In this document: piece by piece, positions 13,622 through 42,332 of the stretch
Numbering within the stretch: the stretch's first letter is position 1
Layout: the number at the start of each line of letters is the position of its first letter
The notes under the pieces: generated by a model
Seen by the model: the letters and a program-made list of their open reading frames with translations, nothing else
Told to the model about the DNA's origin: nothing
The model's database searches: none
NCBI GenBank assembly: GCA_021325235.1
Contig: JAJPHN010000025.1
Location: forward strand, 372,001-436,000
Direction: 5' to 3'
Origin: Terriglobia bacterium
GTDB taxonomy: Bacteria; Acidobacteriota; Terriglobia; Bryobacterales; Bryobacteraceae
Length of the DNA stretch: 64,000 nt
Made by a program: the position numbers and the translations under genes

Positions 13622-15001
13622 TTACTCTTCGAAGGGCGCATCGTCGTCGCCGGTATCGGCTGCCAGGTTTTCGAATTTCGTGTAGCGATTGAGAAACGCG
13701 AGCTTCACGCGTCCGGTGGGGCCGTTGCGCTGCTTGGCGAGAATCAGCTCGGCGAGGCCTTTCAGACTTTCTTTGTCGGGGCGATAAACTTCTTCCCGGA
13801 AGATGAAGCCGACCATATCGGCGTCCTGTTCGATGGAGCCGGATTCGCGCAAATCGCTTAGCATCGGGCGATGATCACCCGGCCGCGTTTCCGGCGCACG
13901 GCTTAACTGCGAAAGCACCAGGAACGGGACGCGCAGCTCTTTGGACATCAGCTTGAATCCACGCGACAGCGAGCTGATCTCCTGCACACGATTCTCATAG
14001 CGGCCGCGGCCCTGCATCAGCTGCAGGTAGTCGATCACGACCAGCCCGAGATCCTGTTCGGCCTGCAGCCGCCGAAGTTTCGAATGGACGTCCATCAGAT
14101 TTGTGCCGGCGGTGTCGTCGATATAAAGCGGCGATTCGACGATGCGGTAGAGCGCGTCCTGCAGCGCGTGGCGCTCTTCCGCATTGAGGTATCCGGCACG
14201 GAACCGCTGCTGATCGACGCGCGCGGTGGCACATATCAGCCGCGTCAGCAGCGATTCTTTCGACATTTCAAGCGAGAACACCGCGACTGCTTTCGGGTTC
14301 TTGGGGTTCATCGCCACATGCTGGGCGATATTCAGCGCGAAAGCGGTTTTGCCCATGGCCGGGCGAGCGGCGAGGATGAACAACTCGCCCTCACGCAGAC
14401 CGCCCGTCATTTCATCAAACTTCAGGAAGCCCGTACCGATGCCCTTGATGCGCTTGCTGGCATCGAGAAAGGCGTTGATGCCGCCTTCGTACTCACTGAC
14501 GATCTGAGCCGGGCTCGAGAGTGCATTCTTCGATTGAACATCGCCAAGCTTGATCAGCGTCTCTTCGAGAGCGCCGAGAATTTCGGTCGCGTTTTCCCCC
14601 TGCGCTACGCAGCGGCTGATGGTGTCCTGCGAGACGGCGATGATCTTACGCAGCGTCGATTTTTCTTTGACGATGGCGGCGTAGCTGTCGAGATTGTGCA
14701 GCTGAGGCAGGCCATCATCGAGCGAGACCAGGTAGCTGAGGCCATCCACCGATTGCAGCTGTCCGTGCTTCATCAGCTCATTGGCCAGAGTCACGCGATC
14801 GATCTTTTCGCCGCGCTCGTGCAGCTCGCTCATGCGCAGGAAAATGCGTTTGTGTTTTTCGAGGCTGAAATCGTCGGCCGTGAGCAGACCCGCAACCTGC
14901 AGGAAGGCCGCCTCGGTGCTCATGATGGCGCCGAGGACGAAGCGCTCCGCGTCGAGATTATCGGGCAGAGGATGATCGAGGGCGATTTCGCGCGCAGCCA
15001 T
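13622..15001 (-). CDS. dnaB: replicative DNA helicase
   Basis: DnaB is the hexameric helicase that unwinds the replication fork. The protein has 459 residues. The N-terminal primase-interacting helical domain starts near residue 13 (DNLDAERFVLGAIM). A linker follows, then the RecA-like motor with Walker A ARPAMGKTAF (211-220), LVVIDYLQLMQGRG (Walker B), and LSQLSRAPETR with the arginine-finger region. There is no intein. The C-terminus ends in an acidic tail (DTGDDDAPFEE). It is first in the minus-strand run; the 226 bases between its start and the his leader gene must hold both divergent promoters. Confidence 0.95.
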   Translation of the reverse strand: MAAREIALDHPLPDNLDAERFVLGAIMSTEAAFLQVAGLLTADDFSLEKHKRIFLRMSELHERGEKIDRVTLANELMKHGQLQSVDGLSYLVSLDDGLPQLHNLDSYAAIVKEKSTLRKIIAVSQDTISRCVAQGENATEILGALEETLIKLGDVQSKNALSSPAQIVSEYEGGINAFLDASKRIKGIGTGFLKFDEMTGGLREGELFILAARPAMGKTAFALNIAQHVAMNPKNPKAVAVFSLEMSKESLLTRLICATARVDQQRFRAGYLNAEERHALQDALYRIVESPLYIDDTAGTNLMDVHSKLRRLQAEQDLGLVVIDYLQLMQGRGRYENRVQEISSLSRGFKLMSKELRVPFLVLSQLSRAPETRPGDHRPMLSDLRESGSIEQDADMVGFIFREEVYRPDKESLKGLAELILAKQRNGPTGRVKLAFLNRYTKFENLAADTGDDDAPFEE

Positions 15002-15212
15002 ATTCCGAGCCGTGTGTTGGGGTGGACTTGTCTACGTTATGCGACCCATCGCCCGGAGTGCAATAGGCGAACATACAGCTTCCACGCAATCCACCGCGCA
15101 GCGGGTAACAGAAAAAATATTTGTCAACGGCGTTTCCACAGGAAATCCTATTACATTTTCGCCCAAAAATGTTCAATGTAAAGAGCCCTTTCGGTTTACT
15201 GCCCGCTGCTGC

Positions 15213-15218
15213 TATACT
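15213..15218 (+). promoter_or_regulatory. candidate -10 box of the his operon
   Basis: TATACT is a near-consensus sigma-70 -10 hexamer, 10 bases before the leader-peptide ATG. This would place the transcript start at about 15224-15226, giving an almost leaderless mRNA. The -35 region at the proper distance (TTCGGT near 15190-15195) is weak, so the assignment is tentative. Confidence 0.45.
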
Positions 15219-15227
15219 CGTCAGCAG

Positions 15228-15275
15228 ATGCACAGCAAAGTTCATCGCCACCATCACCATCCTTCGATGGCGTAG
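15228..15275 (+). CDS. hisL: histidine operon leader peptide
   Basis: A 15-codon frame encodes MHSKVHRHHHHPSMA and ends in TAG (15273-15275). Six of the 15 residues are His, four of them consecutive (15249-15260). It lies 80 bases upstream of hisI on the same strand and is followed by a strong terminator. This is the hallmark of transcription attenuation by a histidine-sensing leader peptide, as in enterobacterial hisL, although the peptide itself is not homologous. No Shine-Dalgarno is obvious, which agrees with the very short 5' UTR implied by the TATACT box. It was recognised from the His run and from its position relative to the terminator. Confidence 0.9.
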   Translation: MHSKVHRHHHHPSMA

Positions 15276-15324
15276 CGGCGAGCCTTTGCGTTGTTCCTGG
15301 TTTCTTTTGCAATCGGCCCGCTGC
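15272..15324 (+). promoter_or_regulatory. candidate his antiterminator pairing
   Basis: GTAGCGG (15272-15278), which overlaps the leader stop codon, can pair with CCGCTGC (15318-15324) in seven consecutive pairs, one of them G-U. The second segment is the 5' arm of the terminator, so the two structures exclude each other. A ribosome stalled on the His codons (ending at 15260) leaves 15272-15278 free and favours readthrough. A ribosome at the stop codon covers it and lets the terminator form. A small hairpin CCATC-CTTC-GATGG (15257-15270) could act as the pause or alternative structure. Confidence 0.75.
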
Positions 15325-15347
15325 TCCGGCAGCGGGCCTTTTACTTT
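15315..15347 (+). terminator. his operon attenuator terminator
   Basis: A perfect 10-bp stem is formed by GGCCCGCTGC (15315-15324) and GCAGCGGGCC (15329-15338) around a four-base loop TCCG. It is followed directly by TTTTACTTT. It lies between the leader peptide and hisI and ends 9 bases before the hisI start codon. The GAGG ribosome-binding site of hisI (15347-15350) lies just past the T tract. Confidence 0.92.
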
Positions 15348-15355
15348 GAGGCAGA

Positions 15356-15751
15356 ATGGCGGATTCTTCGATAACGTCTGACTTGGATTTTGAGAAGCAG
15401 GGAGGGCTGATTGCGGCCGTGGTGCAGCATGCGCGAAGCGGGCGCGTGCTCATGGTCGGCTACATGAACCGCGAGGCGTTTCATAAGACACTCGAGACGG
15501 GCCACGTCACGTTTTTCAGCCGCTCGCGGCAGAAGCTCTGGACGAAAGGCGAGACATCAGGTCACTTTCTCGAGCTCGTCTCGATTCACACGGATTGTGA
15601 CGCGGACGCGCTGCTGGTTGAGGCGAACCCAATCGGGCCCGGCGTCTGCCACAACGGCTACGAAAGCTGCTTTTACCGAACTCTGCAGAATGGCGAATGG
15701 GCGGTCACGGATGCGCCTGCCTATGACTCGTCGTCGGTCTATTCGAAATGA
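15356..15751 (+). CDS. hisI: phosphoribosyl-AMP cyclohydrolase
   Basis: HisI opens the adenine ring of phosphoribosyl-AMP, the third step of histidine synthesis. The 131-residue protein carries the PRA-CH signature: [16 protein letters not shown] (55-70), the metal/substrate segment [11 protein letters not shown] (78-88), and Cys98 and Cys105 that complete the zinc site. It is monofunctional: there is no C-terminal HisE (PRA-pyrophosphohydrolase) domain, and no hisE gene lies in this operon. It is the first structural gene after the attenuator, has GAGG five bases before ATG, and overlaps hisG by four bases. Confidence 0.95.
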
Positions 15752-16617
15752 AACTGAAGCTCGGTATACCGAAAGGCTCGCTGGAGTCGGCGACGATTGA
15801 TCTTTTCCGCCGCGCCGGATTCGTGATTACCACCAGCAGCCGCAGTTATTTTCCGGCCATCGATGATCCCGAGATCGAATGCATGCTGATCCGCGCCCAG
15901 GAGATGGCGCGCTATGTAGAAGACGGCGTGCTCGATGCGGGTCTGACGGGCCGCGACTGGGTAGAAGAAAACGAAGCGCATGTGGAAACGGTGGCCGACC
16001 TGATTTACGCCAAACAGAGCTTCGGCAAAGTGCGCTGGGTACTGGCGGCCCCCGAGGCTTCGCCTTACAAGACGGTCCAGGATCTGGAAGGAAAGACGAT
16101 CGCGACCGAGTTGGTCAATTTAACCGAGCGATATCTGGCCAGCAAGGGCGTTCATGCGCGGGTGGAGTTCAGCTGGGGCGCAACGGAAGTGAAACCGCCG
16201 GAGCTGGCGGACGCGATCGTGGAAGTGACCGAGACCGGCTCGTCGCTTCGTGCCAACAAGCTGCGAATTCTGGAGACCGTGCTCGAATCGAACACGCAGC
16301 TGATCGCAAACCTGGATTCGTGGGCCGACATGTGGAAGCGGCGCAAGCTGCAGGACATTAAGATGCTGCTGGAAGGTGCGATCAACGCGCTCGGCAAAGT
16401 CGGGCTGATGATGAACGTGCGGCGCGATCAACTGGAAGCGGTGATCAACGCGCTGCCTGCGTTAAAGAATCCGACGATCTCGCAGCTGAGCGATGAAGCC
16501 TGGGTAGCGGTGAACACGATTCTCGAAGAGGCGACGGTGCGCACCATTATTCCGCGCCTGAAAGAAGCCGGTGCGCAGGGAATCGTCGAGTATCCGCTCA
16601 ACAAGATCGTGATGTAG
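15748..16617 (+). CDS. hisG: ATP phosphoribosyltransferase, long form
   Basis: HisG condenses ATP with PRPP in the first, committed step of histidine synthesis. At 289 residues it is the long, hexameric form with a C-terminal ACT-like regulatory domain (about 210-289) that normally binds histidine for feedback inhibition. It therefore needs no HisZ partner. Motifs include [11 protein letters not shown] at the start, [12 protein letters not shown], and the PRPP loop [15 protein letters not shown]. It overlaps hisI by four bases and ends three bases before hisD. Confidence 0.95.
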
Positions 16618-16620
16618 GCG

Positions 16621-17865
16621 ATGATTCGAATCGTTGACGAAGCTGGAGCCCGAGCCATTCTGAGCAGCCGCGCGCGCACGCTGGGCGATGCGGAAGCAGT
16701 GGCGCGCCCAATTCTGGAGACGGTTCGCGCGGAAGGCGATCTGGCGTTGCTGCGGTATGCGCGGGAATTCGACCGGCTCGGCACACATCCGCTGCGAGTT
16801 ACAGAGAGTGAACTCGCCGAAGCCGAGGCCGCGCTTTCACCGTGCCTGCGTCAGGCTGTCGAAACAGCGACGCGCAACATTCGCGAATATGCAGAGGCGC
16901 AGCTTCCGCGCGAACATTTGGCCGAATTTTCGCCGGGACGAAAACTTGGCTGGATTGTGCGGCCCCTCTCGGCGGTGGGCTGCTATGTGCCGTCGGGAAG
17001 ATATCCGCTGCCCTCCACTCTCCTGATGACGGCGGTGCTCGCGCAAACCGCCGGAGTCGAGCGCATTGTGGTCACATCGCCGAAGCCTTCGCCTGAGATT
17101 CTCGGTTGCGCGAAGTTGCTTGGCATCACGGAAGTGTATCGGGTGGGAGGAGCGCATGCGATCGCGGCACTCGCCTTTGGAACGGAGACGATTGCACGAG
17201 TGGACCGCATCGTCGGGCCGGGAAACGCATATGTGGCTGCGGCGAAGAAGCTGGTAGCCGGCGAAACGGGTATCGATTTTGTTGCAGGTCCGACCGAGAT
17301 TCTGATTCTCGCGGCGCAGGCCGATCCAGGCGTGCTTGCGGCCGATATGCTCGCACAAGCCGAGCACGACGAAGCGGCCAGCGCGATGCTCCTTACGACT
17401 TCGCGCGAGCTGGCTGAGACGGTGGCGCGTGAGCTGGAGATGCAGCTGGCCGATCTGCCGACCGCCGATGTGGCTCGCCGCTCACTGGCGAGCAACGGAT
17501 TTATCGCCATTCTGCCTACCATAAAGGAAGCCGTGGCACTTGCGAATTTCTGCGCGCCGGAACATCTCAGCCTTCACGATCCGGAGCTGCTTCCGCAAAT
17601 TCGTAACGCCGGTGCGGTTTTTCTAGGTGCGTGGTCAGCTGAATCGGCGGGTGATTACGCAGCGGGCCCGAGCCATGTACTGCCGACCGGAGGCGTGTCG
17701 CGGCTGCGCGGCGGGTTATCGGTCACTGATTTCATGAAAGTAATTTCTATTCAGGAGCTAACACCTTCTGCGCTCGCCGATCTCGCTCCTGCGATCACGA
17801 CACTGGCGCGCGCGGAAGGGCTCGAGGCGCACGCCCGCGCCGTGGAGATTCGCTGTGCCCGCTAA
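16621..17865 (+). CDS. hisD: histidinol dehydrogenase
   Basis: HisD oxidises L-histidinol to L-histidine in the last two steps, using NAD and zinc. The protein has 414 residues, slightly shorter than E. coli HisD. Conserved blocks are YVPSGRYPLPSTLLMTAVLA, VGPGNAYVAAAKKLV, the zinc-site region AGPTEILILAAQADP with LAQAEHDEAA, and the catalytic block FCAPEHLSLHDPE. The last codons overlap the GTG start of hisC by 11 bases. Confidence 0.96.
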   Translation: MIRIVDEAGARAILSSRARTLGDAEAVARPILETVRAEGDLALLRYAREFDRLGTHPLRVTESELAEAEAALSPCLRQAVETATRNIREYAEAQLPREHLAEFSPGRKLGWIVRPLSAVGCYVPSGRYPLPSTLLMTAVLAQTAGVERIVVTSPKPSPEILGCAKLLGITEVYRVGGAHAIAALAFGTETIARVDRIVGPGNAYVAAAKKLVAGETGIDFVAGPTEILILAAQADPGVLAADMLAQAEHDEAASAMLLTTSRELAETVARELEMQLADLPTADVARRSLASNGFIAILPTIKEAVALANFCAPEHLSLHDPELLPQIRNAGAVFLGAWSAESAGDYAAGPSHVLPTGGVSRLRGGLSVTDFMKVISIQELTPSALADLAPAITTLARAEGLEAHARAVEIRCAR

Positions 17866-18949
17866 CACTGCTCTCGAGAGCGAAACAAAGACCATCGCAA
17901 ACGGCCCGGCGCCCCGCGAAGCCGTGCTGAAAATGGCGCCCTATCATCCGCCCACCGGCGGACGCCGTAACAAGCTGCGCCTCGATTTCAACGAAAACAC
18001 GGTTGGTGCTCCGCCGCACGTGATCGATTTCATCAAGCGCTACCTGACGGCTGCCGACCTGAGCATCTATCCCGAGTACGAGCACACGCTCGAAGAACTC
18101 GCGGCGTTTTTCAAGGTCGCGCCGGACGAACTTACGCTGACCAACGGCACCGATGAGGCGATCCACATCCTCATCAATACGTACGTGAGCGAAGGCGACA
18201 GCGTGGTTTTGATTGAACCGGCATACGCCATGTATCGCTTCTATAGCCAGCTCGCTGGCGCCACTATCAGCGAAGTGCGTTATCGCCACGGCAATCTGGC
18301 TTTCCCGCTCAGCGAATTACTCGAGCAGCTCGATGCCAACACGCGCGCCGTGCTGATCGGCAATCCGAACAATCCGACCGGCACGGGCACGAATGTCGAC
18401 GGCATCCGGCAGATTCTGCGCGCTGCTCCGAATGCCGCCGTGCTGATCGATGAGGCATATTACGAATTCAGCGGCGTTACGGTGCTTCCCCTGATCCGCG
18501 AGTTTCCGAATCTTTTTGTCAGCCGCACGTTCTCGAAGACCTACGGGCTTGCCGCGATGCGCTGCGGCTGCCTTTTCTCGCAGAGCGCTAATATGGCTCA
18601 CGTTCGCAAAGCACAATCGCCTTACAGTGTGAATGCGCTGGCAGCGATGGCGGTGCGAATAGCGGTACAGGATCGCACGTTCGTCGAAGAGTACGTATTG
18701 GAAGTGCTGGCAGCGAAGGAGTTGCTGTACCTGGGCCTCGAAAGGCTGAAAATTCCGTATATTCGGACGCTCGCAAATTTCGTTTTGTTTGAGGCGGGCG
18801 AGCGCGCCATCGAAATCCGCGACGAACTACGCAATCGCGGCGTGCTGGTTCGGGATCGCAGCTATGAAATCCCGGGCGCGGTGCGGGTTACGATCGGCAC
18901 GCGCGACCAGGTCCAGAGATTCCTCAGCGAACTGGAGAAAATTTGGTAG
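17855..18949 (+). CDS. hisC: histidinol-phosphate aminotransferase
   Basis: HisC is a fold-type I PLP aminotransferase that makes histidinol phosphate from imidazole-acetol phosphate. It has 364 residues. The PLP lysine is K228 in SRTFSKTYGLAAMRCG; IGNPNNPTGT (168-177) and LDFNENT (43-49) are the usual family motifs. The GTG start lies inside the end of hisD, and its own stop overlaps the TTG start of the HAD gene by seven bases. Confidence 0.95.
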   Translation: MPANTALESETKTIANGPAPREAVLKMAPYHPPTGGRRNKLRLDFNENTVGAPPHVIDFIKRYLTAADLSIYPEYEHTLEELAAFFKVAPDELTLTNGTDEAIHILINTYVSEGDSVVLIEPAYAMYRFYSQLAGATISEVRYRHGNLAFPLSELLEQLDANTRAVLIGNPNNPTGTGTNVDGIRQILRAAPNAAVLIDEAYYEFSGVTVLPLIREFPNLFVSRTFSKTYGLAAMRCGCLFSQSANMAHVRKAQSPYSVNALAAMAVRIAVQDRTFVEEYVLEVLAAKELLYLGLERLKIPYIRTLANFVLFEAGERAIEIRDELRNRGVLVRDRSYEIPGAVRVTIGTRDQVQRFLSELEKIW

Positions 18950-19632
18950 CGCCGCCGCGTCCAGATGTTCTGGTTTTCGATATGGACGGCGTGCTCGTCG
19001 AAGTGGGCGAATCGTATCGCGAGGCCATTCGCGAGACCGTGCAGCACTTCACGGGCGAACTCGTTTCACACGACCTGATTCAGGATTTCAAGAACCAGGG
19101 CGGCTGGAACAACGATTGGCTGCTGTCCCATCGTTTGATCGCCGATCGCGGCGTTCACGTCGATTACGCGGAGGTGGTGGAGTATTTCAACCGCATCTTT
19201 CTTGGCGAAAATGGGGATGGTCTGATTCGCCGGGAGAAGTGGGTGCCGGAGCCTGATCTTCTCGGGCGTCTTGCGCAGCACGCTACGCTCGCTATTTTCA
19301 CCGGGCGTGCGCGTTACGAAGCGGATGCAACGCTCTTGCGCTATGCTCCCGGCGTGCAGTTCGACCCGCTGATCACGGACGACTCGGTGGAGCATCCGAA
19401 GCCTGCGCCCGACGGTCTGCTGCTCATTCAGCAGCATCATCCGGACCGGCAGATCTGGTATCTCGGCGACACCGTGGACGATGCACGCAGCGCGCGATCC
19501 GCGAATATCCCGTTCGTCGGAGTTTCGATGCGCGCAAATCCGCGCCATGCAGACATCACGAAGACGCTGTACGACGAGGGCGCCTTCACCGTGCTCGAAA
19601 ACGTCAATGAACTCGAAGGTTTGCTGAGATGA
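18943..19632 (+). CDS. HAD-family phosphatase, candidate histidinol-phosphatase
   Basis: This 229-residue HAD subfamily IA protein starts at TTG. Motif I is DMDGV (D13/D15), motif II is in IFTGRARYE, motif III has the Lys in [10 protein letters not shown], and motif IV is [13 protein letters not shown]. All catalytic residues appear intact, with a helical cap between motifs I and II. It is embedded between hisC and hisB with overlaps on both sides (7 and 4 bases). The operon lacks a recognised histidinol-phosphatase, and hisB here is only the dehydratase. I therefore infer that this gene supplies that step. The biochemical role is not proven by sequence. Confidence 0.85.
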
Positions 19633-20216
19633 GGGAAGCGGCGCTCGAACGTAATACGAAAGAGACGCAGATTCGGGGACGTCTCGCGATTGAAGGCACC
19701 GGCCAGTACAACATCAGTACGGGCGTGCGCTTTCTCGATCACATGGTGGAGCTGTTTTCCAAGCACGGCGCTTTCGATCTCGAGATCGAGGCGCGCGGCG
19801 ATCTCGATGTGGATCAGCATCACACGGTCGAGGACGTCGGGATCGTGCTCGGCGACCTGTTCTCAAAGGCGCTGGGCGACCGCCGCGGCATCAACCGCGC
19901 GGGCTATTTTGTGCAGACCATGGACGAGACGCTGGCCGTAGTAGCGCTCGACCTGGGCGGCCGGCCGGCGCTGGTGTACGACCAGCAGGTCAATGTGGTG
20001 CACGTGGGCGATCTGCAAACGGAACTGCTTGAAGATTTCTTCTCCGGCTTCGCCAATCATGCGGGCGCGAATGTGCATGTGAAAGTGCTGTACGGGCGCT
20101 CGAATCATCACAAGATCGAGGCTATTTTCAAGTGCTTCGCTCGAGCTATGCGGTATGCATGTTCGACGGATGAGCGGTTGAAAGACCAGCTGCCATCGAC
20201 CAAGGGATTGTTGTGA
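19629..20216 (+). CDS. hisB: imidazoleglycerol-phosphate dehydratase
   Basis: HisB (dehydratase domain only, 195 residues) removes water from imidazoleglycerol phosphate in a manganese-dependent reaction. Both metal-binding HHxxE repeats are present: [10 protein letters not shown] and [13 protein letters not shown]. The segment [19 protein letters not shown] is also typical. The N-terminal phosphatase domain of enterobacterial HisB is missing, its place being taken by the separate HAD gene immediately upstream. Overlaps are four bases at each end. Confidence 0.96.
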
Positions 20217-20806
20217 CGACCATTGTGAACTACGGCGCGGGCAACCTTCGCTCGGTTCAGAACACGCTCGAGGAACTCGATGCGCAGTACCTGGTTACCA
20301 GCAAACCGGAAGACGTGCTGCGCGCCGAGAAGCTCATTCTGCCGGGTGTCGGACATTTCGGGCAGATGATGCAGGCGGTGGATGATCTCGGATTACGGGA
20401 GCCGCTGATCGAAAAGATCCGTGCGGGCACTCCGTTTCTGGGTATCTGCGTCGGCCTGCAATGTCTGTTTGAATCGAGCGAAGAATCCCCGGATTCGCGC
20501 GGACTGGGTATTCTGAGAGGTGTTGTGAAACGCTTCAGCGGTCCGGTGCGCATACCGCACATGGGTTGGAATTCGCTCGAGCGCCTCAAACCATCACGGC
20601 TACTGGAAAATTTGGACGCACAGCCGTTTACGTATTTTGCGCACAGTTTTTACGCGCCTCTGATCGACCAGACAGCCGCGGCCTGTACGTATTTGCTGCC
20701 CTACACCGCTGTGATCGAGCACGACAATCTTTTCGCCGTGCAATTTCATCCTGAAAAATCCGGACCCGCCGGCCTGCGCGTGCTGGAGAATTTTCTAAAT
20801 TTCTAA
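20213..20806 (+). CDS. hisH: imidazole glycerol phosphate synthase, glutaminase subunit
   Basis: HisH releases ammonia from glutamine for HisF. The 197-residue class I glutamine amidotransferase starts at GTG. It has the catalytic triad Cys79 ([12 protein letters not shown]), His179 and Glu181 (VQFHPEKSG). The [10 protein letters not shown] start and PHMGWNSL segment are typical. Its stop codon is immediately followed by the hisF ATG, as expected for two subunits made in equal amounts. Confidence 0.96.
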
Positions 20807-21571
20807 ATGCTGGCGAAACGCATCATTCCGTGTCTCGATGTGACGGGCGGCCGGGTCGTGAAGGGCGTGAACTTCCTGCAGTTACGGGATGCGGGCGATC
20901 CGGTGGAGCTGGCGGAACGCTACAACGCGCAGGGAGCGGACGAACTGGTTTTCCTCGACATCACGGCTTCGAGCGATGCACGCGACATCATGGCGGATCT
21001 GGTGGCCCGCACTGCGCGCCGGGTGTTCATTCCGTTGACAGTGGGCGGCGGTCTGCGAACCGTGGCGGATGCGCGTAAGATTATCCTCGCCGGAGCCGAT
21101 AAGGTGAGCGTCAACACGGCCGCGGTACGCCGTCCTGAGCTCATTCGCGAGCTTAGTCTGGAGTTTGGTGCGCAGGCCGTCGTGCTTGCCATCGATGCAC
21201 GCCGGGCGGACGAGAATCGCTGGAACGTATACACCAAAGGCGGCCGTCAGGAAGAAGGCATCGATGCGATTGAATGGGCCCAACGCGGCGAATCGCTGGG
21301 TGCAGGTGAAATTCTGCTCACATCCATGGATACCGACGGCGTGCAGGGCGGCTTCGACTGCGCTTTAACGGCGGCCGTGGCCCGAGCCACGACCATACCG
21401 ATCATCGCCTCGGGCGGGGCGGGCACGCCGGAAGATTTCGTGGAAGTGCTGACAAATGGCTGTGCCGATGCGGCGCTTGCCGCTTCTGTTTTTCACTACG
21501 GAAAATATAGTGTGGCGCAACTCAAAACTGTGCTCGCCGAATCGAACATTCCGGTGAGGCCCTCCGCATGA
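20807..21571 (+). CDS. hisF: imidazole glycerol phosphate synthase, cyclase subunit
   Basis: HisF uses ammonia channelled from HisH to form imidazoleglycerol phosphate and AICAR. The 254-residue (beta/alpha)8 barrel has catalytic Asp11 in [16 protein letters not shown]. The second catalytic Asp is in VVLAIDARR, and the phosphate sites are in LTVGGGLRT and IASGGAGT. It overlaps hisA by four bases. Confidence 0.97.
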
Positions 21572-22278
21572 TTATTCCCTGTATCGACCTCATGGATGGC
21601 CGAGTGGTTCAGCTCGTACAAGGGCGCGAGAAAGTGCTCGAGCGATCGACCGAAGAAATGCTCGAGCAGTTTCGCGGTTTCGAGCAGATTCAGGTAATCG
21701 ATCTCGATTCGGCGATGAATCGAGGATCGAACGGGCCGCTGGTGGAGTACATCGCGCGTCAGGTGAAAGCTCGCGTGGGAGGCGGCGTGCGTACCATTCG
21801 CCGCGCGCTCGAGCTGGTTGCTCAGGGCGCTTATCGCGTTATCGTAGGCACGGCGGCGTTTTCATATGATGGGCCGAATCTGTCGTTCCTGCGCGAACTC
21901 AGCGCCGCAATCGGAGCCGAAAAGATCACCATTGCGCTTGACAGCAAGAACGGAAAGATCGTCACGAATGGTTGGAAGCAGGAGACGGCATTCAGCGCGC
22001 GCGACGTGCTGGCGCTGGTTGAACCCTATTGCTCCGGTTTTCTTTGCACCTATGTCGATAAGGAAGGCATGATGCAGGGAACGGACCTCGGCTGGTTCGA
22101 ATCGCTGCGGCGCGCCACAGGGCACGAAATTATTGCCGCGGGAGGCATCACGACCCTGGAAGACATTGAAGCGCTCACGCGGCTCAACATCCATTGCGCG
22201 ATTGGAATGTCGATCTACACCGGGCGCCTGCCGCTCGACGCACTTCGAGAGATGAATGCCGTCCGAGCCTCCGGGTAA
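21568..22278 (+). CDS. hisA: ProFAR isomerase
   Basis: HisA isomerises ProFAR to PRFAR in histidine synthesis. The 236-residue barrel has Asp in [15 protein letters not shown] and the segments [18 protein letters not shown] and [13 protein letters not shown]. Compared with common bacterial HisA, the middle is divergent: the second catalytic Asp lies in [14 protein letters not shown], somewhat like the fungal/plant HisA pattern. Its end overlaps the wbqC-like gene by 23 bases, so this is still part of the operon. Confidence 0.93.
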
Positions 22279-23035
22279 CACCCCCGGCGCTTCCAGCGAC
22301 TCCGGGATCCGCGGACTTTCGTGCGTGATCCTGCAGCCCTCCTACATTCCCTGGCGCGGCTATTTCCACCAGATCCGTAAAGCCGATATTTTCGTCTTCT
22401 ACGACGATGTGCAATACGACCGGCATGGCTGGCGCAATCGTAATCGAATCAAAACGCCTGCCGGACCCAAATGGCTGACCATTCCGCTACACGCAACCGG
22501 CAAATCGATTGAACAAAGCCGGATCTGCGATATGCGAACAGTGGAAGAGACAAACTGGCGCGCCCGGCATTTTGAAACGCTGCGCCACAATTACACGAAG
22601 GCGCCGTATTTTGCGGAGTATCGGCCCATGCTCGAGCGCTGGTACAGTGAACCTGCGCCGGTGCTTGCGGATTTCACGATTGGTACCACGATTGATCTGG
22701 CCCGGGAGCTCGGAATCACGAAAACGCAGTTTATTCGCAGCTCGGCGCTGGGCTTCGAGGGTACAAAGACGGAACGGCTGCTGCATATTTTGTTGCAAGT
22801 CGGAGCAAAACATTACATCAGCGGCCCGTCGGCCCGCGACTATCTCGATGAATCTCTGCTCAAGGCTCACGATATCGAAGTGGAATGGATGCGCTACGCG
22901 TACGGCGAGTATCCACAGCTGCACCCGCCTTTCGATCCGCAGCTTTCCGCGCTCGATCTGCTGCTGAATACCGGACCAGCAGCAGGCAGCTACATCTGGG
23001 GCGCTGAGCCGGCTGCGTCCGCCCACTTACAATAG
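22256..23035 (+). CDS. WbqC-family protein
   Basis: This 259-residue protein has the WbqC-like signature LQPSYIPWRGYFHQIRKADIF, then FYDDVQYDRHGWRNRNRIK, WLTIPL and GAKHYISGPSARDYLDE. WbqC-like proteins occur in O-antigen and sugar-modification clusters and sometimes beside aminotransferase genes; their biochemical role is not settled. Here it is tightly coupled to hisA (23-base overlap), which is unusual. About 20 residues at the N-terminus look disordered. The next gene (mrdA) starts 29 bases later. Confidence 0.85.
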   Translation: MPSEPPGNTPGASSDSGIRGLSCVILQPSYIPWRGYFHQIRKADIFVFYDDVQYDRHGWRNRNRIKTPAGPKWLTIPLHATGKSIEQSRICDMRTVEETNWRARHFETLRHNYTKAPYFAEYRPMLERWYSEPAPVLADFTIGTTIDLARELGITKTQFIRSSALGFEGTKTERLLHILLQVGAKHYISGPSARDYLDESLLKAHDIEVEWMRYAYGEYPQLHPPFDPQLSALDLLLNTGPAAGSYIWGAEPAASAHLQ

Positions 23036-40781: not shown

Positions 40782-42332
40782 TCAGAGCGAGTTCAGGAAG
40801 TTGACCAGATCCTGTTTATCCTGCGCGCTCAGGCCGATGCTGAAGCGAGTGTTGTAAAAGTCCACAAGCTGATTGAGCGTCGCCGCATTGCCACCGTGGA
40901 AATACGGCGCGCGTGCGGCCAGGCCGTTCAGACGCGGAACTTTGAACTTACCGAGGTCCGCGCATTTGCCGCTGATCAGACCCATGCCGGGATCGGTTGT
41001 CTGATACTCGTCGTAAGTCGTGCCGTTGATGGTGACCGGGTTGCTATAAAACGGAATCGATCCCACCGGGCAATCGAACGCAAACAGCGGCTGATCCTTG
41101 CTGGGAGGCAGTGCGGTTGCCGTCATCTGATTGCCGGATTTGTCAGCCGCGCTATTGTCGCCAATGCCGAGATGGCGTCCACCCGAAACGGCATCCGATC
41201 CGACGTCGAGATTGTTGTGGCAGGTCGAGCAGGTTGCCAACGGAAACGGATTGCCGGCGACGTCGTTGAATCCCGCCACTCCCTTCATCGTGAAGGTGCG
41301 CGTGGTAAAGATTTTCTGCCCGCGATTGATGGAGGCCTGAGCGGCGTTGTTGGTCGGCAGAGTCCAGGCATCGAATTGGTGAAAAGCCAGCGGGACGACC
41401 GGGTCGGGCACGTTCGAAACGCCAACCGTCGCCAGCGTCTTCGGTCCGCCGAGGCCGCCCGATCCCGAAAGGCTTCCGGCGTTGTTGTCGAAGCTCTGCG
41501 AGGTGAACAGGCCGGTTTCAAACGTAACTCCCTGGTTTACCTGTGCGGCAGTCGGCGCAGTGGAGGCTTGTGCATGTCCGAGCGTCGCGTCGGTAAACTG
41601 GCTCTGCAGGCTGGGTTCGCGGCCATCCCACATAATGGCGCCTTCGGGCGAAAGCGGCGGTCCCGCCTGAGCGTTTCTCGTTAGATTCGTACTGTTCATA
41701 ACTCGCCGGTACATGGAAATAATTCCCGTTGGCAAGCCGTATTTACTGCTTGATTCGCAACCATACGGATCGGCTAAGATACGAACCTGAAATTCAGCTC
41801 CGGAAGGTACCGGAAGAAAGATTCGGATGTTACCTTTCGTGAGTAACTGGCTCGAAGCTGCACTCTTCTGAGCTAGTGTTTGGGCGGCTGCGCCTGTATC
41901 CGGACAATTGGCTCCATCAACAGGCGCAAACAGAGGGTCTGTTCCGTTGGTCTGATTGAAAATGGCTTGTGCGGCGCTCGCACTCAAAGCCCAACCGCTC
42001 TGCGGCTGATGACAGGTGAAACAGGTACGTCCGTTGGTGCCGAGTGGTGTGAAAAATGCATTTCCGGCCGTCGTGGTCGCCCCGTTCGGCTGGTAGGTTG
42101 CTACGCGTCCCGTGGCATCGCTGCTCTCAGCGTATTGCGGAATCGAAGCTGGTGTTTGGCCCGGCTGCGTACTGGAGGGAGCCGGTGCATTGCGTGATTG
42201 GGTCCAGACCGGCGGAAACCACACAGGTAAACCGGGCACTCCGATCTGCGCGCGAGTAAGTTGCGCAAGAAATACAGCACCGCCGAGCAGCATCAGTGCT
42301 GAAACACAACGGCTCAGCCGCTTCAACGTCAT
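40782..42332 (-). CDS. di-haem cytochrome c peroxidase-like protein
   Basis: This 516-residue exported protein has a signal peptide (MTLKRLSRCVSALMLLGGAV) and two c-type haem sites, CFTCH (104-108) and CSTCH (368-372). The C-terminus has the MauG/CcpA pattern FKVPRLNGLAARAPYFHGGNAATLNQLVDFYNTRF. It probably reduces peroxide or performs an oxidative modification in the periplasm. Relative to classical CcpA it is long, with an extra segment of about 250 residues between the haems. It is convergent with the membrane-anchored hypothetical gene and divergent from the amidohydrolase across a region containing a large palindrome. Confidence 0.85.
   Translation of the reverse strand: MTLKRLSRCVSALMLLGGAVFLAQLTRAQIGVPGLPVWFPPVWTQSRNAPAPSSTQPGQTPASIPQYAESSDATGRVATYQPNGATTTAGNAFFTPLGTNGRTCFTCHQPQSGWALSASAAQAIFNQTNGTDPLFAPVDGANCPDTGAAAQTLAQKSAASSQLLTKGNIRIFLPVPSGAEFQVRILADPYGCESSSKYGLPTGIISMYRRVMNSTNLTRNAQAGPPLSPEGAIMWDGREPSLQSQFTDATLGHAQASTAPTAAQVNQGVTFETGLFTSQSFDNNAGSLSGSGGLGGPKTLATVGVSNVPDPVVPLAFHQFDAWTLPTNNAAQASINRGQKIFTTRTFTMKGVAGFNDVAGNPFPLATCSTCHNNLDVGSDAVSGGRHLGIGDNSAADKSGNQMTATALPPSKDQPLFAFDCPVGSIPFYSNPVTINGTTYDEYQTTDPGMGLISGKCADLGKFKVPRLNGLAARAPYFHGGNAATLNQLVDFYNTRFSIGLSAQDKQDLVNFLNSL

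Follow-up and report, generated by a model that had tools for sequence, protein, structure and literature searches.

A putative ribosome-mediated histidine attenuator with a probably near-leaderless leader gene ahead of the hisI-led his operon of a Bryobacterales-like acidobacterium

The his operon and its leader region

The window, the whole 64,000-nt stretch of DNA that was analyzed, carries on its forward strand a his operon that opens with hisI, encoding phosphoribosyl-AMP cyclohydrolase (15356-15751; NCBIfam PRK00051.1 above cut-off, Pfam PRA-CH), and continues through hisG, hisD, hisC, a HAD hydrolase gene, hisB, hisH, hisF and hisA (15748-22278), as named by NCBIfam, with all of the operon genes downstream of the leader overlapping or no more than 4 nt apart. 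HisI, HisG, HisD, HisB, HisH and HisF pass their NCBIfam cut-offs, and HisC and HisA are best names that fall under theirs. The upstream neighbor, dnaB (13622-15001; Pfam DnaB), lies on the opposite strand. The closest named relatives of hisI belong to records titled Terriglobia, Acidobacteriaceae, Bryobacterales or Bryobacteraceae, and the host is a Bryobacterales-like soil acidobacterium with a his operon led by hisI. The first-pass annotation had called both the gene order, with hisI first, and the phylum different from those of the established enterobacterial cases, and the NCBIfam and Pfam matches together with the hisI relatives uphold it on each count.

The hisB gene of this operon encodes a dehydratase only, so the HAD-type hydrolase encoded between hisC and hisB (18943-19632, forward strand) may be the missing histidinol-phosphate phosphatase. 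The HisI product (15356-15751, forward strand) contains the cyclohydrolase domain only (Pfam PRA-CH), and no hisE was seen among the his operon genes scanned. At the far end, the first ATG of a WbqC-family open reading frame (22256-23035, forward strand) falls 23 bases inside the end of hisA, and the true start of this frame may be later.

Ahead of hisI is a short open reading frame on the same strand (15228-15275) that encodes MHSKVHRHHHHPSMA and has comparable His-rich counterparts in relatives. Direct reading of the sequence places its ATG at 15228 and its TAG stop codon at 15273-15275, and the codons between specify M-H-S-K-V-H-R-H-H-H-H-P-S-M-A, so that the six-His leader peptide first proposed for this position is indeed there. 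The six His codons, which are the candidate regulatory codons, start at 15231 and 15243 and then form an uninterrupted run at 15249-15260. Nine nt upstream of the leader ATG is a -10-like TATACT (15213-15218) preceded by TG (15210-15211), which together make up a predicted extended -10 promoter element, TGC-TATACT (15210-15218, forward strand), recognized from its sequence and from the -10 spacing seen across leaders. The position of this element predicts a transcription start zone at 15224-15227 on the forward strand, and thus a 5' untranslated region of only about 0-4 nt. As a check on chance, the genome that contains the window was searched for CAY4 sites; among 30 of the 47 found (those fetched as loci and examined), the site in the window is the only one that lies within a short open reading frame followed by a terminator.

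A perfect, GC-rich 10-bp stem, GGCCCGCTGC (15315-15324) with GCAGCGGGCC (15329-15338), separates the leader from hisI. It has a 4-nt loop and is followed by TTTT (15339-15342), just as had been claimed, and its sequence, its fold and its covariation in a 47-sequence alignment mark it as an intrinsic terminator (15315-15342, forward strand). Regulation might instead act on hisI translation by sequestering the ribosome-binding site, or might work through a T-box or a protein rather than by termination. Such control is possible as an extra layer, but as a replacement for termination it is very improbable, since the structure on the 3' side has the canonical form of an intrinsic terminator, the GAGG that directly precedes the hisI start and the ATG itself are both outside the stem, and no T-box was matched in Rfam, either in the window at the gathering score or among the 12 weak matches to 15180-15400 at E up to 10. 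Termination of transcription is therefore the reading followed here. A weak TAnnnT (TACTTT, 15342-15347) also sits 8 nt upstream of hisI's own ATG.

Conservation of the leader and its promoter spacing

The hisI gene is present in 76 of 80 relatives, and 70 upstream regions were examined, one for each genome and with the window's genome included. The six hisI-bearing relatives outside this count are G016 and G059, in which the gene is at a contig edge, and G073, G074, G075 and G077; a second hisI match in G063 was omitted, and one region that was retained, L113, has just 248 nt of upstream sequence. A further set of loci (L031-L057), at least 11 of which have upstream sequence identical to loci already in the main set of genomes, was inspected and kept out of the counts. 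The detector applied to these regions called an open reading frame of 8-45 codons with at least three His codons behind a TAnnnT box 5-14 nt before the start codon, plus a terminator; it overlooks some terminators that are recognizable by eye, as in L005, because the stem extends into the T-run.

A loss of both the His codons and the competing stems in relatives, which would have spoken against the first-pass annotation, is not what was seen. A His-rich leader behind a -10 box was found in 51 of the 70 regions, the window's included, and a terminator accompanies it in 50. Twenty rounds of dinucleotide shuffling gave a mean of 1.65 leaders per 70 regions and no leader with a terminator in 1400, and the reverse complements of the same regions gave two leaders in 70 and one leader with a terminator. 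The detector hits are spread over the window's genus (13/15), the rest of its family (25/29), family f2 (2/2), the members of family f3 outside genus g34 (5/6) and the other families of the class (6/7), with none in the 11 members of g34 examined. The misses number 19 of 70, a figure that falls to 17 once L116 and L130 are admitted, in each of which a His-rich open reading frame has its -10 box farther away. In the g34 loci (L026, L114, L119, L120, L125, L131 and five more) the detector finds the leader absent in all 11, and a conserved GAGCTTGATATTCTGAGATTCTGG block takes its place in six of them.

The 51 leader peptides range from 12 to 26 amino acids and contain 276 His among 996 residues (28%), encoded by 161 CAT and 115 CAC codons, as against 15 and 23 His of 1047 in the other two frames. 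Since both His codons are used and His is scarce in the other frames, selection acts on the peptide itself. It may nonetheless be asked whether the His codons are sensed at all, as a constitutive promoter and a leaky terminator could simply hold the operon at a fixed low level. Consistent with such an arrangement, a -10-like box and a terminator are kept without a His leader frame in a few relatives, namely L118 according to the detector and L005, L046 and L049 by eye, which are perhaps natural losses of the sensor. Against it stand the His-rich leaders of 51 of 70 regions, with both codons in use, and an antiterminator that goes with the terminator arm, and on this evidence an unsensed leader is improbable. 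Attenuation by sensing of the His codons is thus preferred.

Outside the His residues, and in length, the peptides vary freely, and two layouts can be distinguished. For most members of the window's genus, the leader stop codon is placed at the antiterminator arm or immediately upstream of it, and in many other relatives the reading frame extends until its last codons are themselves the antiterminator arm, which gives peptide ends such as RRAGF; the arm would be masked in both layouts by a ribosome that has reached the stop codon. This variability bears on another possible role for the frame, as the gene for a functional, His-rich and perhaps metal-binding small peptide whose terminator ends its own message. 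The frame does have its own predicted promoter and its own terminator, but peptides that are free to change outside His and in length (12-26 amino acids), C-terminal codons that double as an antiterminator arm in many relatives, and a position upstream of his operons whichever gene leads them make a peptide with a function of its own hardly credible, and a regulatory leader is by far the better account.

The spacing of the promoter was assessed on 44 leaders chosen by His content, an ATG start and a terminator, with the promoters not consulted. In 35 of the 44 a TAnnnT box ends 8-9 nt ahead of the ATG, and each other distance from 0 to 50 accounts for at most three; a box of this kind is preceded by TGn in 26 leaders, and a motif resembling a Shine-Dalgarno sequence occurs in two. 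With the -10 box at this distance in so many leaders, the leader gene is probably near-leaderless, as had been suggested from the -10 box of the window alone. According to PMC3160421, leaderless genes are marked by TA-like signals about 10-12 bp upstream of the start, and in three acidobacteria they make up 13.3% of the genes on average.

Competing RNA structures and their covariation

The predicted fold of the leader RNA (15224-15346) has a z-score of -4.88, and none of 200 shuffled sequences folded as well. Besides the terminator, it contains a leader hairpin in which 15235-15249 pairs with 15277-15289 and hides the antiterminator arm, a structure that is additional to those in the first-pass annotation. 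Three strands on the forward strand can be defined from the computed structures. Strand 1 (15235-15249) pairs with strand 2 and is predicted to hide it when the leader is untranslated, as indicated by the fold and by the probability of sequestration in relatives. Strand 2 (15274-15290), the 5' arm of the antiterminator, overlaps the leader stop codon, and strand 3 (15308-15325), the 3' arm, contains the 5' arm of the terminator (15315-15324); both of these are supported by folding, by modeling of the ribosome and by covariation. In RNA that lacks the first part of the leader and stops short of a complete terminator 3' arm (15252-15330), the lowest-energy antiterminator has about 15-17 bp, with 15274-15280 paired to 15319-15325, 15282-15284 to 15315-15317 and 15286-15290 to 15308-15312. 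A 7-bp antiterminator had originally been drawn between 15272-15278 and 15318-15324; that pairing exists, with one G-U and with the stated overlap between its 5' arm and the stop codon, but the best pairing is longer and shifted in register by three bases. The 7-bp helix is accordingly kept as an alternative to the longer one of lowest energy. A small hairpin at the end of the His run, CCATC-CTTC-GATGG (15257-15270, forward strand), appears in the fold and in the consensus of 14 short-type leaders, where one of its four pairs has changed on both sides, in two sequences, and it is a possible pause hairpin for RNA polymerase.

On the assumption that the ribosome footprint extends some 15 nt from the A-site codon's first base, the sequence from 15274 on is free or almost free while the ribosome is in the His run, and is covered once the ribosome is at the stop codon. 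Switching was computed with such ribosome positions on the 50 leaders with a terminator, as the probability that the terminator 5' arm pairs upstream. Its mean is 0.77 for a ribosome placed on the first codon of the His run, 0.69 for one on the last codon and 0.25 for one on the stop codon, compared with 0.57 when the intervening RNA is shuffled, and the probability exceeds 0.5 in 49, 41, 7 and 40 of the 50 leaders, respectively. The shuffled value is high because the regions are GC-rich, and so the contrast between stall and stop counts for more than the level of pairing. The contrast in the window is among the weaker ones, at 0.92 for the first His versus 0.56 for the stop codon, with the latter equal to the shuffled value. 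On average across the 50 leaders, the modeled antiterminator excludes the terminator, is masked when the ribosome is at the stop codon and is free when it stalls on His codons. The leader is also predicted to hide the antiterminator arm, with a mean probability of 0.65 (shuffled, 0.42) in the 19 leaders that have a long gap between stop codon and terminator and of 0.69 (shuffled, 0.52) in the other 31.

Leaders pair better with their own terminator arms than with those of others, at a mean of -15.37 kcal/mol versus -13.96 (sd 0.25) for swapped arms, and none of 20000 permutations, which ignore kinship, was as good as the own arms. In four leaders (L018, L012, L020 and L126) the pairing with the own arm is poorer than the average with foreign leaders or arms in at least one direction. 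Alignments A1 and A2 hold 47 of the 50 leaders (without L122, L138 and L142), as does A3 (without L122, L138 and L147). Consensus folding of the aligned leaders returned the terminator, plus the small hairpin in the 14 short-type sequences; the antiterminator was not recovered, probably because gaps blur the middle of the alignment, and it was therefore assessed through modeled ribosome positions and named alignment columns.

Assessed on such columns in an alignment of 47 sequences, the antiterminator helix shows pairing in 79.0% of cells, versus 35-46% when it is slid along the alignment, and has a covariation score of 0.109, versus 0.086 for shuffled alignments (2 of 500 as high) and 0.007-0.055 for slid versions. 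Three of its seven pairs have changed on both sides in some sequence, a count that says little alone, since 33 of 500 shuffles reach it and slid versions give 1-3; two of the five covariation measures are weak in this sense, with 33 and 37 of 500 shuffles reaching them. The antiterminator thus covaries modestly. In the same number of sequences, the terminator is paired in 95.7% of cells, versus 31-59% when slid, four of its eight pairs have both partners changed (a count reached in 6 of 500 shuffles) and its covariation score is reached by no shuffle in 500. All three strands change together at one position (columns 93, 161 and 179) in two sequences, L149 and L150. The covarying stem arms that were to be sought in relatives can therefore be said to exist, in that pairing is retained through some compensatory changes.

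Relation to known attenuators, spread and proposed mechanism

In PMC9413887, his attenuators are described in gamma-proteobacteria and predicted in 17 Firmicutes species, with T-boxes or HisR elsewhere, and PMC2965389 reports a His leader of hisS paralogues in bacilli. The gamma-proteobacterial attenuator, that of Escherichia coli included (RF00514 His_leader), is similar to the present element in its His-rich leader, its mutually exclusive structures, its terminator before the his operon and its use of ribosome position as the sensor (PMC9413887). It differs from the element described here, in which hisI is the first gene (hisD or hisG in some relatives), the message probably begins with scarcely any sequence ahead of the leader and the phylum is another. 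At the gathering score, neither the window nor the loci of eight relatives match RF00514, which is also absent from the 12 matches to 15180-15400 at E up to 10. At the locus a short open reading frame with tandem His codons precedes the first his gene and an intrinsic terminator lies between the two; together with the computed antiterminator, these features place the element in the functional class of his attenuators, and the lack of an RF00514 match in these searches places it outside the Rfam His_leader family. The his and hisZ attenuators predicted in Firmicutes (the Bacillus cereus group, Peptostreptococcaceae with Lutispora, and Erysipelotrichales) likewise combine a terminator and an antiterminator with predicted leader peptides that have three to five consecutive His codons; they are recorded from 17 species in three lineages (PMC9413887), and the present element, with its probable near-leaderless start, from 58 of 297 genomes of another phylum. 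Leader peptides transcribed leaderless, as predicted here from a -10 box at leaderless distance and the near absence of Shine-Dalgarno motifs, are described in PMC8079986 for the LeuL1, IlvL and TrpL2 attenuators of Streptomyces lividans, which serve other amino acids and genes, and the word histidine is absent from that paper. RF00506 Thr_leader matches 15224-15346, exactly the leader, below threshold (30.5 bits, E 0.00036, against a gathering score of 55 bits); its amino acid and operon differ, and kinship was set aside in favor of a shared attenuator shape. No description of such an attenuator in acidobacteria was found in full-text searches of a literature collection with few subscription papers, and as far as those searches extend the element is new for its phylum.

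The distribution was followed with a covariance model built from 47 leaders, which was run with a limit of E 1e-4 on 297 genomes of the phylum, under stricter filters that lose weak matches. The 58 genomes matched comprise 26 of the 30 genomes of family f11 listed (219 non-matching genomes are not itemized in this search), three from the family to which the window belongs, two of them (G000 and G040) also present in the model's alignment, and 29 from outside the class. In 54 of the 58 the match lies just upstream of a his gene (hisI in 47, hisG in four and hisD in three). The matches at L200, L205 and L208, which do not adjoin his genes, were rejected as his elements, and that at L189 ends at a contig edge. 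The hisI upstream regions of 53 loci taken for comparison, mostly from other phyla (L058-L110), contained two matches, each in a record with the title Acidobacteria; another two acidobacterial records, one with little upstream DNA, gave none, and the set is a weak control because hisI need not be the first gene in many of its records.

Leaders for other amino acids were also encountered. At L205 (G244:C1, near 443150, reverse strand) an Ile/Ala-rich short open reading frame, seen by eye and beginning MSHAGSTLIIAAIAII, is accompanied by a terminator and is possibly another amino-acid attenuator. In the window's genome, a leader encoding MIRFSLISVLVAVRNTA lies about 180-126 nt before the matched start of ilvB (L212; G000:C45, ilvB at 41445), with a GC-rich stem and T-run downstream that are visible by eye and were not called as a terminator by the detector; it is a probable second attenuator in this genome. 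Similar Val/Leu-rich leaders, for example MNRLQKVVVLLGAVAHRTA, occur in six of nine members of the genus examined, L212 included, and among these six only L214 has a TAnnnT box located 5-12 nt ahead of the ATG of its leader. An upstream scan of 15 leuA-like loci, a designation under which the family cut-off was passed in 0 of 25 genomes, found with the -10 criterion no Leu-, Ile- or Val-rich leader worth following.

Comparison of sequences indicates that the element is very probably a ribosome-mediated transcription attenuator of the his operon. From sequence, conservation, spacing, covariation and computed structure competition we infer the transcription start, the stalling, the termination and the response to histidine in the following scheme. 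RNA polymerase would start just upstream of the leader ATG, so that the ribosome would load at the message's 5' end or close to it. With charged His-tRNA available, the ribosome would arrive at the stop codon (15273) and cover the antiterminator 5' arm (15274-15290), the terminator (15315-15342) would form and transcription would end before hisI. When charged His-tRNA is short, the ribosome would stall in the His run (15249-15260) with strand 1 covered and strand 2 free, and strand 2 would pair with strand 3, block the terminator and allow transcription of the operon. In the absence of translation strand 1 would pair with strand 2, and termination would be the default.

An attenuator of this kind is ordinary in principle, and the probable near-leaderless leader is its most distinctive feature. 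The element pairs a textbook sensor with what is probably a near-leaderless leader gene, and as such would provide a direct test of how leaderless initiation keeps up with RNA polymerase; the covariance model allows elements of this kind to be annotated. A broader proposal, offered tentatively and perhaps more doubtful than not, is that histidine attenuation in the Acidobacteriota is old, widespread and near-leaderless, with loading at the 5' end, rather than a Shine-Dalgarno interaction, timing the race between ribosome and polymerase. If this is true, anything that alters leaderless initiation would be a second input to histidine expression.
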